A DNA stretch of 62,768 nt, taken from positions 1-62,768 of IMG/VR virus record IMGVR_UViG_3300027852_000042, one strand, 5' to 3'. Numbering within the stretch: position 1 is the stretch's first letter; each line of letters opens with the position of its first letter. The stretch is from a virus. Under the pieces are notes generated by a model. The model saw nothing but the letters and a program-made list of their open reading frames with translations, ran no database searches and was not told where the DNA came from. This document shows, in pieces, positions 1,813 through 42,601 of this stretch. Both the position numbers and the translations under genes were made by a program.

Positions 1813-3032
1813 TGGCTGAATCTGTTTTTGTGGGATATGGAGAGTTAGATCCAACATCGGGTGGGGGTCATAATTCCACTAGAACTAGCGATGGCCGAAT
1901 ACATGTCGTATATCATTCTGCACTCAGTCTTCGTTATCAATATTCTGATGATAACGGTCTAACTTGGTCAACCCCACTTACTTTAGCCACTAACACTCAG
2001 TATCCTCCCCTGTGCCAAATTATTTGCGATGAAGAGGATAACTTGTATGTTGTGGCGAATAATACTCCAGAGAACAACGATATTGGATTTTTCAAATATA
2101 ATGCTTCAACTCAGTCTTGGGAAACTATTAAGTGGTTAAGCTACCCAGGCCAATATTTTTCTCCACCTGTATCGATAGCAATTGCCCCAGATGGTGTAAT
2201 TTATGTGGTGGCAATGTGTGCACATGTTGCGATGCAGCAAGGATGCGCTGTAATTTATAGTGATGATAGGGGTGAAACTTGGAACGCTGCCGGGATAATA
2301 AGTTTAACACATTTTACATCGGCAGCAATTGCTGTGGGAACAAATGGAACTATACATATTCCATATGTTAACAGGGTTGCGGATCCTTGGTATACATACG
2401 AACTGGGGTACCTTAGTGGAACTCCGTTTAGTTGGGGAATAGAGATAGTAGACGCTGCAATAGCACCCATTAGAACGTACTATTACAACCCAAGAGTTAT
2501 TTTAGACATTAATGGTGATTGCCACATTCAATACCTTAGAAATTATAGGGATAATCCTGGTGGTGTTCAATATCGACACGCAAAAAAAGTAGTAACCTCT
2601 TGGGTAAAAACAGATATTTATGAGGGAACTATACAGGGTATATCGTATTATACGGCTTCAGGGTTTAGTCACACAAGAGAAGGTTTAATTTTAGCATCTA
2701 TACAGAAGGGGTTTCCTGATGGTGGGTTGTATATTTTTACAAGTGATGATGGTGGTGATACTTGGGTTGAGACTCAGGAGATAGAAAACCCCGGCGGTGT
2801 GTATCCTGGTTATAGATCTGACTTACTTTGGCAAAATTATCCAAGTAACTGTGAACCCTTGTCTGGGTTTGGATGTCTGATGGAGACGAACGCTGGTATT
2901 TATTGGAATACGGGTTGGACATGGCCCGGTCTTATGGGGCTCAAATATACCTTCACTCCAGAAACAAGGAAAAATAATTTTCTATCGAAGAACTTAAGTG
3001 TTAAGACTTTTGAGAATAGTATTGAGGTATAG
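1812..3032 (+). CDS. Beta-propeller virion protein with Asp-box (BNR/sialidase-like) repeats
   Basis: 406 aa. It holds at least three Asp-box motifs (S-x-D-x-G-x-T-W): YSDDNGLTW near residue 44, YSDDRGETW near 149 and TSDDGGDTW near 310. These mark blade turns in sialidase-type beta-propellers. Family knowledge suggests a carbohydrate-binding or cleaving domain exposed on the particle. I do not see a convincing set of sialidase active-site arginines, so binding or structural use is as likely as catalysis. It lies between fibre-like genes and the tail hub gene. Confidence 0.7.
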   Translation: MAESVFVGYGELDPTSGGGHNSTRTSDGRIHVVYHSALSLRYQYSDDNGLTWSTPLTLATNTQYPPLCQIICDEEDNLYVVANNTPENNDIGFFKYNASTQSWETIKWLSYPGQYFSPPVSIAIAPDGVIYVVAMCAHVAMQQGCAVIYSDDRGETWNAAGIISLTHFTSAAIAVGTNGTIHIPYVNRVADPWYTYELGYLSGTPFSWGIEIVDAAIAPIRTYYYNPRVILDINGDCHIQYLRNYRDNPGGVQYRHAKKVVTSWVKTDIYEGTIQGISYYTASGFSHTREGLILASIQKGFPDGGLYIFTSDDGGDTWVETQEIENPGGVYPGYRSDLLWQNYPSNCEPLSGFGCLMETNAGIYWNTGWTWPGLMGLKYTFTPETRKNNFLSKNLSVKTFENSIEV

Positions 3033-3035
3033 AAA

Positions 3036-4577
3036 GTGCCAATACCATATGAAATAAGACAATCAGTGATAAACAACGGCATAGTAATGAACGCTCCGAC
3101 AACGGATGTTGTGTGGAGTATTGGTCGGAATGTAGTATTTAGGTCTGGAACTGTCTCGAAAACACTAGGTAAGACGTTAATTACGACAACGCCAGACAGT
3201 AGGCCGGTTAGGGAACTGTTTACCTTTAGGGGGTTAGATAATATAGTCAGGACGGTCTGTTGCTGTGATTCTAGGTTATATCGATACATAGACGACTTTA
3301 CTGGAGTTGAAGATATTACCGGAGCCAACCCGCCTTCTGGAAATGAGAATTCTATTTGGAATTTTGCATTGGTTGCCGGTATACCGGTGCTATCTAATGG
3401 TGTTGATAAGCCATGGAAGTGGGACTACCGTGATCACATTAATGATGCTGAACAATTAAGTAATCTTCCCGTTGCCAATGCGATAACTACGGCATTAAAT
3501 AGGTTGATGCTTGGAGGTGTAACGAACTTTCCAAGTAGGGTTGCTTGGAGTTCAATAGGGGACCCTTCAAGTATAGAAATAACGCCAGAAACAACTGCCG
3601 GTAGGTCAGATATCATTAACCCGAACAATACTGGACACTCAACCATAGAGATAATTAGATCATTTAGTCAATCCGGAGAAAGAAAAAGGGTTTATACTGA
3701 TCATAGCATATGGCATGGAACCCCGGTTGAGTCTATCATTGACTTCAACTGGACATTATCTCCAGATGGAATAGGGTTGATTTCTCCAAAAGCCTTTGTC
3801 CATATAAATGGAATAGATTTTTTCATGGGGTGTGATGATTTTTATACTTACAGTTCGGAGTTAACTTCTATTGGGGAACCAATTAGAAACGCTGTGTTTC
3901 CAAACCTCAATAATGGTCAGGTGGGCAAGTCTTTTGCATATTATAAATCATCTACAAAGGAGATTTGTTTTTGTTTTCCGACAGGCTCTAATACTTATCC
4001 GGATACAATGGCAATCTTTAATCTTATTTTAAACAACTGGTCCTTTGCGGATGTTGATTATTCTGCACATACTTATGGGTGGACCCAGACATCATATGAG
4101 TGGGATGCTATACCTTATGGAAGTTGGGATACAATAGAAGACAGTCAGTGGGATAGGTTTGGAGACACTGGTGTCATCCCATACGAAGTAGTAGGCGACG
4201 AGAATGGTCAAATATTTAAGCTTGACGATGGGTATAACAATAATGGTAATGCCATAGAGGGATACATTGAAAGTGGTGATATCGTTGTGAAGAGGAGTGG
4301 AGCCAAGAAAAATATTACCGTATTACGGGTGGTCCCACACTTTAAGCCACATGAAGTTAAGACACCGGTTATGGTTCAGGTTGGGACTAGGAGAACCCTT
4401 GGCGATGATATAGAGTGGTCTCAACCTCAACCGTTTACCGTTGGTGTAAGTAAAAAGTTGGACTACAGAAAGGCTGGGAGGTATATTAGGTTCAGATTTT
4501 TTACCGACCAAGTGGACTCACCTTGGATATTGTCAGGATTTACATTTTACTTTAAGATAACAGGAGGGTATTATTAA
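3036..4577 (+). CDS. Tail hub / DNA-stabilisation protein (P22 gp10-like)
   Basis: 513 aa from a GTG start preceded by a GAGG at suitable spacing. The middle of the protein carries a V-A-W-S-S-I-G-D-P-S segment near residues 168-177. That WS-x-G-D-P pattern is typical of the podovirus packaged-DNA stabilisation proteins that plug the connector after packaging, as in P22 gp10. Repeated Trp-rich stretches, such as WDTIEDSQWDRFG near residue 365, fit a beta-propeller. A general podovirus tail protein is the alternative call. Confidence 0.65.
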   Translation: MPIPYEIRQSVINNGIVMNAPTTDVVWSIGRNVVFRSGTVSKTLGKTLITTTPDSRPVRELFTFRGLDNIVRTVCCCDSRLYRYIDDFTGVEDITGANPPSGNENSIWNFALVAGIPVLSNGVDKPWKWDYRDHINDAEQLSNLPVANAITTALNRLMLGGVTNFPSRVAWSSIGDPSSIEITPETTAGRSDIINPNNTGHSTIEIIRSFSQSGERKRVYTDHSIWHGTPVESIIDFNWTLSPDGIGLISPKAFVHINGIDFFMGCDDFYTYSSELTSIGEPIRNAVFPNLNNGQVGKSFAYYKSSTKEICFCFPTGSNTYPDTMAIFNLILNNWSFADVDYSAHTYGWTQTSYEWDAIPYGSWDTIEDSQWDRFGDTGVIPYEVVGDENGQIFKLDDGYNNNGNAIEGYIESGDIVVKRSGAKKNITVLRVVPHFKPHEVKTPVMVQVGTRRTLGDDIEWSQPQPFTVGVSKKLDYRKAGRYIRFRFFTDQVDSPWILSGFTFYFKITGGYY

Positions 4578-8741: not shown

Positions 8742-11700
8742 ATGCCACCTGAAATTCCATCAGATAGAGAATTTCTTAAAAGACTTAGAGCTATGGGGAA
8801 AACTGCCAAGGAAGAAATTGCTTCACCTTCTAAGGTTAACCTTAGTGATGTTCCCGGAAATCCGATAACCAAAGGCTTACCTCTTGTTCCAAAAGAAGAG
8901 CCCTATGGTGCTACCATTGAGGGTGATCAGTTTCATTTAACTAGATATAAACCACATGAACCTACTGTTGGAGAAGAGCCAAGGGTAAAATCTATAGGAA
9001 GACTTTTCCGTCAGGTTGGGGAAGGTGGTCGAACTATTGCTCAGAACTTGTTGGAACTTTCTAAGGGGATGGGAGAGAGTGAGGCGTTAAGGCAGGACGA
9101 CAAGGAAGATGAGGGGTTTTTACCTTACCTGAAGGAAGAATATTTAGGTGATTTTAAGCAGGGAACATCTCTTCTATCTAAACTGAAGGGTGCAGAAAGA
9201 TTTACACCTGCGAAGCTTGGCCCCAAAGTATTTAAAGATGTCGTTACCAGGGTTATCGATAAGATCCACCCTCCTGCATGGGAAAAGCTGTCCAAGAAAA
9301 GCAGAGAGGCCCTTGAGACCGACATAATGACCACCCCCGAGGCATACAAAGAGTCTCTTGGTTTCTTTGAAGACGCTGCAAATATGGCTCCACAGTTACT
9401 TACTCTGTTGGGGACCACCTATCTATTTAAAACTCCGGTAGCAGGTAGCCTTTTTATAGGTACGCAAATTGCCGGTGGTCAATATGGGGAACTATCAAGG
9501 CAAGGTGTTGACCCGAGACGTGCCATTGATTTGTCTGTTTTAAATGCAACACTGCAAACAATTCCAGAAGTATTGTCCGCTAAAATAGCCATTAAGGGGT
9601 TTAAGCAGGTAGCAGAAAGAACGGACATTGCTAATAGGTTGATAAATCTAACTAAAACCTTAGCTATTGCTCCACCGGTTGAGTTCTTTACCGAGTGGGT
9701 GCAGAAATATCCGGAGGAGATCACAAATATAGCTGCTTTAAATCCAGACAAGGGAACCCTTGAGAGGACGAAATTACTTTTCGACAACCTTGGTAGGGTT
9801 AATAGGGAGGGTGCCTATGAAGGTTTAGTTGCAGCCTTTATGACCTCTTTCGTTCCGTTTGCTGGACTTGTACGGACCGGTAAGTCTCATACCATGTCAG
9901 AGAAGGAGGCAAACAACCTTAGTGCTCAAGCAAAGATACTGCGAATAGGTGGAGACAATATCGATATCGACCCAGAGGTGGGGTCGAGAATCCTTGAGAT
10001 AGGTAACATTGTAGATGAAGCTATAGACAGAGTAGGCAAGGGAAAGTCTGTTGTTTTTAACAAAAGGGATGTCAATAGGATCTCAGAACTTCAGGGTGAA
10101 GTAAGGGAATTAACTGAAAGTTTTGAAGCTGATGAGGCAGTAAGGGCAACAGAAGAAGAGGTGGTTGTTGAGCCTGAAGCGGAGGTGCCACCAGTAGTAG
10201 AAGAAGATGTTACTGTAGAACCAGAGGTTGAGGCAATACCTCCAGTGGAGGGTGGGGTAGCGGAACCACCGGTGGCGGAATCTGAAGTTGTTCCCCAACA
10301 GACCTATGATGAGGTTCAGGCTGAAATTGACGATACAATAGATGCTTTAATGGAGGATGGGTTATCTTTTGAAGAAGCTGATAGCCATCCAAGTGTTGAG
10401 CAACTTTACGAAACCAGAAATAAAATTGGGCAAAAAGAACTTGAGCAATCCTACAACGAAATATCTCCCATCATAAACAAAACCACCGGTGATCAAAAGC
10501 AAACAGATTCTATTCTTAGTCGTATTTACAGTCTTGACCCAAAAGATTTAACCGGACAATATTTTGCTTCCGAATATACTGTTGAGCAAGTTGATAATAG
10601 GGAGGAAACCAGGGGGAAAATACTCCGTAAGATTGTGGAAGATTATGGTAGAGAACACAATCTTGATATGGATGGAGTTTTCTCAGGTGCTTCCGGGTTT
10701 ACAGCGAAAGGCCAAAGAAATTTACTTAAAAAATTAACGGACAAGGCGAACAAAATTGAAGAAGATGTTTATGGATATTTTCACGAAGACATTGATGTGG
10801 TTCAAGAAGTGCAACAGGTAGAAGAACAGCCATTAATTGAAGAAGAAAAGAAAACTGATGGAGTTTCTGTAAGAAAATTACCTATTGCCAAGCCACCCAT
10901 CAAACATGTAGCCAGGAAAGATAAGGAAATAGTAGACACAGAAAAGTTTTACGTGTTGAATGAGAAGACTGGCAAGTTCAAGAAGGTGGAAGTTAAGACA
11001 CGTAAGCAGATACCCGGATTCGAAACTTTCGATTTGTTTATACATAAGACAGGTGATGTGTGGGCTATAGCTGAGGGGTTAACCGGGAAGGAGTATGCTA
11101 CTGGTACAACACAGAAGGAAGCAATGGAGTCATTTTTAGAGAAAACTACTCCAGCAAAACTTACGGCAGACTTGAAGCGTATAACCAAAACCGGCAAGAA
11201 GGTACCTGTTACGGGTAAACCCATTCCCGATACTAAGCTTTCACCTAGATATACTAAGGATAAGAAAGAGACTCCTCCCAAGAAGAAAGAGACTCCTCCC
11301 AAGAAGAAAGAGACTCCTCCCAAGAAGAAAGAGACTCCTCCCAAGAAGAAAGAGACTCCTCCCAAGAAACTAGAGGATAAGGTATCCGATACTCAAAAGA
11401 AACTGGAAGAATTAAGAGCCTTGAGTGATACCCTTCCTGAAAATTCTGAGGCAAAGGCTGAGGTTGACCGGCAAATAGAAAATGAGATACTAAAGATAGG
11501 AAAGGAGGAACAGAAGCCAGCCCCAAAAAGGAAATCTGACAAGAAAAAACCCCCAAAGAAGATAGTTACTAGAAAGAAAACCACAAAACCAAAAACTCAG
11601 CCAAAGAAAAAGAAGTTAGTTCCCCCGTTTTTTAAGGAAACTGAAGAGGCTAATGCTTCAACACATGCAGCCGCATGGGTTAAGAACCTGTCCACCAAAG

Positions 11701-40644: not shown

Positions 40645-41508
40645 ATGGCGAGCCCCCAAAAGGAAGACGGTCACATTGATATTGCAAATGAAATTGTAGA
40701 CAAATTGTGCTCATATCGTATTAGTGGTCAGGAATGGCAAATTCTGTGGGTGATAATTAGGAAAACCTGGGGGTGGGAAAAGAAAATAGATTGGATAACT
40801 CTTTCTCAATTTCAAAGGTTAACTGGGATAGACAGAAGAAGGTGCCACAGTCTTTTGCAAAAACTATGCGGTAAAAATATTATAAAGAAATCTGTCACCA
40901 AAAAAGGTGACACTTTGAATGTAACATATGGTATTCAAAAGGATTTTGAGAAATGGAGGGTGTCACCAAAAAAGGTGTCACCTGTCACCAAAAAAGGTGA
41001 CACTTTGAATGTAACATATGGTATTCAAAAGGATTTTGAGAAATGGAGGGTGTCACCAAAAAAGGTGTCACCTGTCACCAATATTGGTGATGAGCTGTCA
41101 CCAAAAAAGACACCCACAAAAGACACTATTACAAAAGACACTATAAAAGATATTAGTCTTTTCAATTTTTGGAATGATCAAAAAATTATTGTTCACAGGA
41201 AAATTGCTGATTTCATCTCACCTATGAAAATTGCTTTAAAAAAATATACAGAGGAAGAAATAAAGGGGGCGATGAAAAACCTGGGGATAATAATAAACTC
41301 ATCGGAATATTGGTGGACCCATAAATACCCTTTAAATAAATTTCTTCTATCAAAGGGGGTGATTGATCAGTTTTTAACAGTAAACAATCCATTAGACAGT
41401 TATAAGAAAAACGTGACAGCTAAAAGCAAACCTAAAAACAGTGGATATGTAAGTGTTGAAGAAAAAATGGAGGAGACGAGGGGTGCTAAAATACGAGGTA
41501 ACACTTAA
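40645..41508 (+). CDS. Replication initiator, lambda O / Phage_rep_O type
   Basis: 287 aa. Residues 10-90 form the winged-helix O N-terminal domain: IANEIVDKLCSYRISGQEWQ, WVIIRKTWGWEKKIDWI, and a RRCHSLLQKLCGKNIIKK recognition region. O proteins bind repeated sites in their own gene, melt the neighbouring AT-rich DNA and recruit the helicase. The middle (residues 83-155) is a low-complexity linker encoded by the iterons, including a 90-bp (30-residue) tandem duplication. A helical C-terminal domain follows, next to a DnaB-like gene. Confidence 0.85.
   Translation: MASPQKEDGHIDIANEIVDKLCSYRISGQEWQILWVIIRKTWGWEKKIDWITLSQFQRLTGIDRRRCHSLLQKLCGKNIIKKSVTKKGDTLNVTYGIQKDFEKWRVSPKKVSPVTKKGDTLNVTYGIQKDFEKWRVSPKKVSPVTNIGDELSPKKTPTKDTITKDTIKDISLFNFWNDQKIIVHRKIADFISPMKIALKKYTEEEIKGAMKNLGIIINSSEYWWTHKYPLNKFLLSKGVIDQFLTVNNPLDSYKKNVTAKSKPKNSGYVSVEEKMEETRGAKIRGNT
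40893..41072 (+). repeat. 90-bp tandem duplication in the replication gene
   Basis: 40893-40982 and 40983-41072 are the same 90 bases repeated in frame, adding 30 residues. The copies are identical by eye, so the duplication is recent or strongly selected. Each copy carries two of the iterons. Confidence 0.95.
40893..41114. other. Putative replication origin: six iterons in the O-like gene
   Basis: Core TGTCACCAAAAAAG occurs at 40893, 40961, 40983, 41051 and 41096, with a variant at 41073 (TGTCACCAATATTGGTGA). Copies at 40893 and 40983 are perfect inverted repeats, TGTCACCAAAAAAGGTGACA. Neighbouring iterons start 22-23 bases apart (two helical turns) or 68 apart. An AT-rich stretch (41110-41250) follows. 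This is the arrangement of the lambda origin inside gene O. Confidence 0.8.
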
Positions 41509-41671: not shown

Positions 41672-41843
41672 GGAAGAGGTTTTGTCATCACTAAAAGACG
41701 CTGAACTTGCTCTAGCTAGGCTTTATTCTTTGCGAAAAGAGTGGCGTGATAGTGAAGATAAGGATATGAAGTTTTTAATCGAGAAAAACATAGCACTTGA
41801 CTTTGAGGGAATACGATGGCTAAGAAACCAGTTAACTGGTTAG
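41655..41843 (+). CDS. Small helical hypothetical protein
   Basis: 62 aa from the ATG at 41655 (an ATG at 41652 is the alternative, closer to the AGGGAGG site). A helical hairpin (EVLSSLKDAELALARLYSLRKEW). It overlaps the helicase gene, whose ATG is at 41816, by 28 bases. Position between initiator and helicase would suit a helicase-loading partner, but I see no motif for this. Confidence 0.5.
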   Translation: MEVWSKEEVLSSLKDAELALARLYSLRKEWRDSEDKDMKFLIEKNIALDFEGIRWLRNQLTG

Positions 41844-42601
41844 AGTATGATGGTGGAGATCAGATACTTCCCTTTCACGTTGTGAAAGAAAAATATGCCG
41901 GACAAAAAGATGTTATAAGTTTTTCAACCGGCATTCCAAAACTTGATGGATATTTAAACGGTGGTATAATGCTCGGAGAGTTGTATACGGTTACAGGTCC
42001 AACAAAACAAGGAAAAACTTTATTATTACAAACCATAACCAAAAACCTAGAGCCCCAAGGTGCCAACCCACTTTGGTTTCAATTTGAGGTTCCTCAGCGA
42101 CAATTTCTCAATCAATTCCCACAACTACCAACAGGGTTTATGCCGTCAGAGTTGGTGCCAAACTCACTTTCTTGGTTAGCTGAACGAGTTCTCGAAAGTA
42201 AGGCTAAGTTTTTTTCTCAAATTATTTTTGTGGATCATCTACACTATCTTTTTGATATGGCAAGGTCGCGAAACCCAAGCCTGGAGATTGGGACACTTGT
42301 TAGGGGGTTGAAAAGAATTGCAGTTACTATGGATGTGGTAATATTTTTAGCTTGTCATACAACTAAAATATCAAAAGAAACCAAGTCGAAAGACTTAGAT
42401 TACAGTATCTTGAGAGATAGTGGGATTATCTCTCAAGAAAGCGACAGTGTTTTTATTATTACCAGGGTTGATAGTGACGCAAGTGATAACCTTGCTCAAA
42501 TGAAAATCGAGTTTCACAGGAGGACCGGCGTTAGGAAAAAAGTAGTACCTCTGGTAAAAATTAGAGGTTGGTTAGAAGAATTAGAGGAAGAAAGAAGTTA
42601 A
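41816..42601 (+). CDS. DnaB-like / RecA-fold replicative helicase ATPase
   Basis: 261 aa. It is only the RecA-like core: GIPKLDGYLNGG near 39-50, Walker A GPTKQGKT (61-68), Walker B IIFVDHLHYL near 136-145 (Asp140), and SILRDSGIISQESDSVFIITR late in the protein, a DnaB-family signature. The N-terminal collar domain of DnaB is missing. Single-domain versions of this kind serve as phage helicases. Together with the O-like gene upstream it forms the replication pair. Confidence 0.8.
   Translation: MAKKPVNWLEYDGGDQILPFHVVKEKYAGQKDVISFSTGIPKLDGYLNGGIMLGELYTVTGPTKQGKTLLLQTITKNLEPQGANPLWFQFEVPQRQFLNQFPQLPTGFMPSELVPNSLSWLAERVLESKAKFFSQIIFVDHLHYLFDMARSRNPSLEIGTLVRGLKRIAVTMDVVIFLACHTTKISKETKSKDLDYSILRDSGIISQESDSVFIITRVDSDASDNLAQMKIEFHRRTGVRKKVVPLVKIRGWLEELEEERS

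Follow-up and report, generated by a model that had tools for sequence, protein, structure and literature searches.

The window analysed here, a stretch of 62,768 nucleotides, is a single viral record in IMG/VR. It contains a gene for a lambda O-type replication initiator of the Phage_rep_O family, followed in the 3' direction by two small ORFs without an assigned family and then by a DnaB_C-type ATPase gene (Table 1). The initiator matched PF04492 with 70.2 bits (E 2.3e-19; curated cut-off 28.7) and TIGR01610 (phage_O_Nterm) with 54.2 bits (E 1.5e-14; cut-off 45.5), which places it in both families and upholds the gene class that an earlier sequence-only reading of this DNA had proposed. PHROG 277, "replication initiation O-like", was matched with an E-value of 8.4e-25. 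No solved structure of the window initiator or of lambda O was found by sequence, and a fold search with the O domain returned generic winged-helix matches, among them the DnaD N-terminal domain.

Judging from its profile matches, the product of the ATPase gene is probably a phage helicase or a helicase-related partner, although its match to TIGR03600 lies far under the cut-off of that model. The protein has only 261 aa, comprising the RecA/DnaB_C part without the DnaB N-terminal domain, and might be a helicase or a loader. No lambda P-like helicase loader gene, as a lambda-type origin would have beside O, is found next to the initiator gene.

Two further observations concern other parts of the window. 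The terminase large-subunit ORF (PF04466, 48796-51099) carries a seeming in-frame mini-intein, running from NPS/CYDIKTKILTNNGW to PPVWNGN/CILG; no NCBIfam model matched this insert, and the call comes from reading the sequence. An exact 21-bp tandem array of 5.1 copies (AAGAAAGAGACTCCTCCCAAG) at 11262-11368 encodes KKKETPP repeats in an ORF of 2460 aa.

Table 1 Features of the initiator locus, in window coordinates
Feature	Position	Strand	Basis or remark
Lambda O-type replication initiator gene, 287 aa (Phage_rep_O)	40645..41508	+	PF04492, PHROG 277, TIGR01610
Recognition-helix codons, residues 64-76	40834..40872	+	AlphaFold2; residue 66 covaries with iteron base -5
Beta-wing hairpin codons, residues 80-97	40882..40935	+	AlphaFold2, block pLDDT 92-95 over residues 81-100
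90-bp unit, copy 1 (68+22 bp; from the wing tip through last strand and C-terminal helix to the linker start)	40892..40981	+	
Iteron 1, TGTCACC-A6-GGTGACA	40893..40912	+	within wing-tip codons 83-90
Iteron 2, first linker iteron	40961..40980	+	68 bp past iteron 1
90-bp unit, copy 2	40982..41071	+	identical to copy 1
Iteron 3	40983..41002	+	duplicate of iteron 1
Iteron 4	41051..41070	+	duplicate of iteron 2
Iteron 5, palindromic variant TGTCACCAATATTGGTGATG	41073..41092	+	
Iteron 6, right arm degenerate	41096..41115	+	abuts AT-rich element
AT-rich stretch, 72% AT	41110..41209	.	matched by only 0.7% of window 100-mers
Two copies of the 15-mer ACAAAAGAMACTATW, predicted unwinding element	41116..41145	+	TRF 15-bp repeat; homologue comparison
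DnaB_C/RecA-fold ATPase gene	41816..42601	+	PF03796 3.9e-15; PHROG 19 1.1e-26; TIGR03600 6.7e-16

Six iterons of 20 bp lie inside the initiator gene, in agreement with a lambda-type origin, which has at least four inverted-repeat iterons of about 19 bp in the initiator gene. The 14-mer TGTCACCAAAAAAG stands exactly at the starts of iterons 1 to 4 and 6, and a copy with three mismatches opens iteron 5, so that all core positions of the sequence-only reading were recovered. The start-to-start spacings measured 68, 22, 68, 22 and 23 bp, again as claimed (22-23 or 68). No further copy of the 14-mer with fewer than two mismatches occurs in the 62.8-kb window, and the exact 20-mer iteron has no match in viral contigs beyond the window's own record. 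The score of the iteron family was 34-35, against maxima of 4 and 9 in two runs with codon-shuffled regions. The 7-bp inverted arms TGTCACC and GGTGACA are perfect; the unit had been called a perfect inverted repeat, which holds for the arms but not for the whole, as the A6 spacer is asymmetric and the unit is no full palindrome. The copy at the start of iteron 5 (TCACCAATATTGGTGA), said to be a palindromic variant, is a full palindrome. Reverse-strand matches between the domain and the linker are few, and the signal that connects the two regions is one of direct repeats. The initiator contains no Rep_3 match, and its inverted-repeat units are unlike the direct-repeat iterons of a Rep_3/RepE-type iteron plasmid origin.

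An AlphaFold2 model of the initiator, built on 31 homologues, gave a confident winged helix with the recognition helix at residues 64-76 and the wing strands at residues 80-87 and 90-97. Iteron 1 coincides in this model with the tip of the beta-wing hairpin, and the 68 bp between the starts of iterons 1 and 2 encode what remains of the wing, together with the conserved YGIQKDFEKW at the end of the domain. In a lambda-type origin all iterons would be flanked by the DNA-binding domain on one side and the C-terminal part of the protein on the other. As iteron 1 sits in wing codons 83-90, the locus is filed as a variant of that type.

The exact in-frame duplication of 90 bp, proposed earlier to add 30 residues to the protein, is present: the two copies of the unit are identical. 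The 10 bp that follow copy 2, CTGTCACCAA, repeat the unit start and belong to iteron 5, whose left arm is the same as the unit start, and the period-90 match consequently spans 100 bp; no exact tandem match in the window is longer. Without one unit the spacings of the window gene would read 68, 22 and 23. The duplication was not found in the nearest homologues, L027 and L026, which supports the proposed growth of the iteron number by in-frame duplication. We infer that slippage between iteron 1 and the former iteron 3, or unequal recombination of the two, would have copied the 68+22-bp unit and turned four ancestral iterons into six; at the junction, 10 bp of iteron sequence are homologous.

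It was also considered that the duplication is an assembly artefact and that the real phage has four iterons (68-22-23), since the window is one metagenomic contig and the unit occurs only once in its nearest relatives. We regard this as unlikely: short-read assemblers usually collapse exact repeats and do not create them, the reading frame remains open across the duplication, and the period matches a distance between iterons and the junction has 10 bp of homology, which is what real slippage should leave.

The linker of the protein had been called the silent carrier of the extra iterons. For the second protein copy of the unit this idea is retained, as the low confidence of the model (pLDDT about 46-56 over residues 111-150) suggests that this copy would most likely be borne as a disordered linker. 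The linker is not the sole carrier, however; iteron 1 lies in codons for the wing tip, a folded part of the domain, where each 90-bp unit also begins before it goes on to include the last strand and the C-terminal helix. In another reading the origin is real but the two extra iterons are neutral, with only four in use. Six-iteron Stx origins show efficient occupancy at four iterons only (PMC7466680), but mutations in iterons 1 and 1' abolish transformation by an Stx-derived plasmid (PMC7466680). We consider neutral extra iterons quite conceivable, at somewhat under even odds.

A single-protein scan of viral contigs gave no close homologues of the initiator, whereas an alignment query of viral contigs did. 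Homologues drawn from viral contigs, bacterial genomes and cultured phages were anchored on the end of the DNA-binding domain and reduced to a non-redundant set of 71 representatives with less than 70% identity. The counting of iterons in related genes, a check suggested together with the original claim, gave intragenic arrays stronger than codon-shuffled controls in 63 of the 71 representatives. At least one iteron lies in codons of the DNA-binding domain in 42 of these 63 genes, a proportion that is not a family-wide frequency because homologues were recruited with patterns from the kin of the window. Between the last domain iteron and the first one in the linker, 22 genes have a distance of 68 bp and 5 genes one of 69 bp; a constant residue count is enough to produce this spacing, which is alone no evidence of selection on DNA spacing.

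The plain layout of 68, 18, 22 and 23 bp is found in L015, L030 and L039. The nearest relatives of the window gene show 68, 19 and 23 bp with a weak fifth match 34 nt on (L027) and 68, 15, 15, 22 and 24 bp (L026). These five uncultured contigs, together with L050 and L064, share with the window the wing-codon iteron and the 68 bp to the linker iterons but have no copy of the whole wing-spacer-linker unit. In other lineages (L032, L033, L045, L050 and L064) the array has instead been enlarged within the wing, with two to four wing-region iterons. L064 is the extreme case: its wing codons (approximately 1300-1400 of that contig) comprise four 21-bp iterons in tandem, coding for TFAETGN x4. No wing iteron was detected in 14 cultured phages that we re-examined; in lambda, phi80, ES18, Gifsy-2, P22 and the rest of the cultured phages analysed, iterons were located in the linker or not detected.

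The contig L002 has a helicase gene 76% identical to that of the window and similar small ORFs upstream of it. Its initiator slot (2839-3681) is occupied by a Lin1244_N-type protein, a swapped initiator module, and no repeats comparable to the iterons are found there. As the other initiator family comes without iterons, the iterons travel with the O gene and not with the neighbourhood. In L003 and L044 the O-type gene is located downstream of the helicase gene, not upstream.

The same 20 bp of iteron are read as VTKKGD in the wing and as SPKKVS in the linker, because 68 is not a multiple of 3, and iterons occupy more than one reading frame in 57 of the 63 arrays. In a recoding test the wing peptide was kept fixed and its codons were drawn randomly among synonyms, with a threshold of fewer than 5% of draws. 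The wing-to-linker DNA match exceeded the synonymous-recoding expectation in 41 of 42 wing-iteron genes, but in only 1 of 42 control segments from the N-terminal half of that domain and in 1 of 21 when the wing came from a linker-only gene; as the wing set was defined by such matches, the result excludes a peptide explanation and gives no estimate of frequency. The iteron match is kept at the DNA level. Conservation of the repeats as peptides, with DNA similarity as a by-product, would agree with a 90-bp unit that is in frame and adds 30 residues. It conflicts with the different peptides read from the same DNA, with the recoding test and with the near-invariant synonymous codons of the downstream TKDT motif, and we give it practically no weight.

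The AT-rich stretch that the sequence-only reading placed after the iterons was confirmed and ranks in the top 0.7% of the window. Two copies of ACAAAAGACACTATT start 20 nt past the start of iteron 6, and thus the AT-rich element comes right after the last iteron, as in a lambda-type origin. Matches to the consensus ACAAAAGAMACTATW were counted at no more than 2 mismatches of 15 and no more than 300 nt past the domain end. The 15-mer is present in 47 of the 63 array-bearing genes, with 2% expected, and in 38 of 54 once the nine genes recruited by that motif are removed. It usually starts 17-24 nt from the start of the last iteron and was never found on the reverse strand of array-bearing genes. 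Its copies are distributed over frames 0, 2 and 1 as 71, 11 and 6. The in-frame copies of the unselected set use ACA in 36 of 37, AAA in 36 of 37 and ACT in 34 of 37 cases (background 33%, 66% and 26%). When 2.9 million viral contigs were searched for the exact 29-mer, 15 matches were obtained, every one in an O-type gene past the iterons, and all three frames were represented. Among known phages, the AT-rich element of lambda at the same place begins ACAAAAGACACTATTACAAAAGA, ES18 carries the 15-mer itself and P22 has the similar sequence ACAAAAGACAATATACAAAAGACA. What very divergent phages conserve in the 15-mer is an oriented element, at the level of the DNA.

The O proteins of lambda and Stx phages bind such iterons and AT-rich single-stranded DNA (PMC7466680). 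The DnaA-trio and the DnaD recognition element in B. subtilis oriC are, like the 15-mer, strand-specific short motifs of the unwinding region beside double-strand sites (PMC10201434, PMC10797057), and in its fold the O domain is similar to the N-terminal domain of DnaD. Because of this binding and by this analogy, the 15-mer might be recognized as a single strand by O or by the helicase apparatus. The B. subtilis elements have another sequence and another initiator.

For residue-base associations, half-sites from 46 genes were registered on the dyad centre. Residue 66 in the recognition helix and base -5 show the strongest association outside the iteron-overlapping codons: H66 occurs with C in 13 of 13 genes and N66 with T in 7 of 9 (Fisher 6.9e-5 for H versus N). 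The association persists in pairs sharing no more than 42% identity, where an identical residue goes with an identical base at 0.77 versus 0.20. The covariation is not significant on the supported branches of a poorly resolved tree (3 independent pairs; same-way 2.4, opposite 0.0). Residues 85 and 88 associate with the site as expected, since the iteron encodes both. H66 with C and N66 with T appear as a candidate for a one-residue, one-base code.

The initiator locus is best explained as a phage replication origin of the lambda type with a variant layout, to which we assign a probability of roughly 0.85. The origin interpretation of the iterons is well supported; it draws on what can be read from the sequence, namely the array, its position in wing codons, the conservation at the DNA level, the exact duplication, the motif after the iterons and the residue-base covariation. 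Of the earlier origin claim, the intragenic iterons followed by an AT-rich element stand, the latter being conserved, and origin activity itself is carried over from lambda. Binding, melting and helicase loading are likewise proposed by analogy. Dimers of the O-like initiator would bind each inverted-repeat iteron through helix 3 and the wing, the first iteron lying in the DNA that encodes the initiator's own wing tip, 68 bp ahead of the first linker iteron. The dimers on the iterons would form an O-some adjoining the 15-mer array. The tandem 15-mer AT-rich element, touched by the last iteron, would melt and be held in one orientation, and the helicase, probably the DnaB_C/RecA-fold ATPase, would be loaded in a fixed orientation.

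A GC-skew profile around 41 kb had been proposed as a check, and no sign change was found there. The skew does change sign near 24 kb and 36 kb, apparently along with the orientation of the genes, and accordingly neither supports nor refutes an origin. The repeats could alternatively be regulatory sites, for autorepression or transcription control by O or another phage protein, with the origin elsewhere. Inverted-repeat sites of winged-helix proteins do look like operators, and origin activity is transferred here from lambda. We judge this explanation improbable, as the sites are inside the gene and directly ahead of the conserved AT-rich 15-mer array, lambda with the same order has a proven origin, and no further exact copy of the site occurs in the window.

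The lambda-type origin proposed for the window shares with lambda ori in gene O (NC_001416) the O-type initiator, the intragenic inverted-repeat iterons of about 19 bp and the AT-rich element that follows. In lambda, all four iterons lie behind the DNA-binding domain (from codon 117) with none in the wing, the wing is short and there is no 68-bp step. The Stx phages 933W and P27 have six iterons compared with the four of lambda, and an O protein with 13 extra residues (PMC7466680). Their extra iterons lie within the cluster, whereas the 90-bp unit of the window, with 30 residues added, comprises a wing iteron and the end of the domain. Gene 15 of phi80, gp59 of ES18, gene 18 of P22 and the O-like gene of Gifsy-2 contain iterons as well, but in the linker only. 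Origins inside O genes and the expansion from four to six iterons are already known (PMC7466680, PMC5043065). In a limited body of open-licence literature we found no description of iterons in the wing codons of an initiator, of a recurring 68-bp step or of a 15-mer shared across the family independently of frame; these three features appear to be new.

A joint reading, which we offer tentatively, is that the site and its reading head are the same DNA and that a strand-oriented "loading code" read on the single strand, ACAAAAGAMACTATW, is common to the O family. If true, the iteron encodes the wing that touches the iteron, and a change of the site in that copy would alter the wing at once. Arrays would grow only where the fold permits, that is, at the wing tip and in the linker. 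Comparable to the DnaA-trio, the code would be retained in lambda, have a similar counterpart in P22 and occur commonly in uncultured phages whatever the frame. The co-evolution of initiator and site becomes testable here, as one site also encodes the presumed DNA-contacting wing and natural H66/C and N66/T variants are at hand. For the question of what recognizes the unwinding element of lambda, the conserved strand-locked 15-mer is a concrete candidate. The duplication in the window illustrates how an iteron array can grow in steps dictated by the protein fold.
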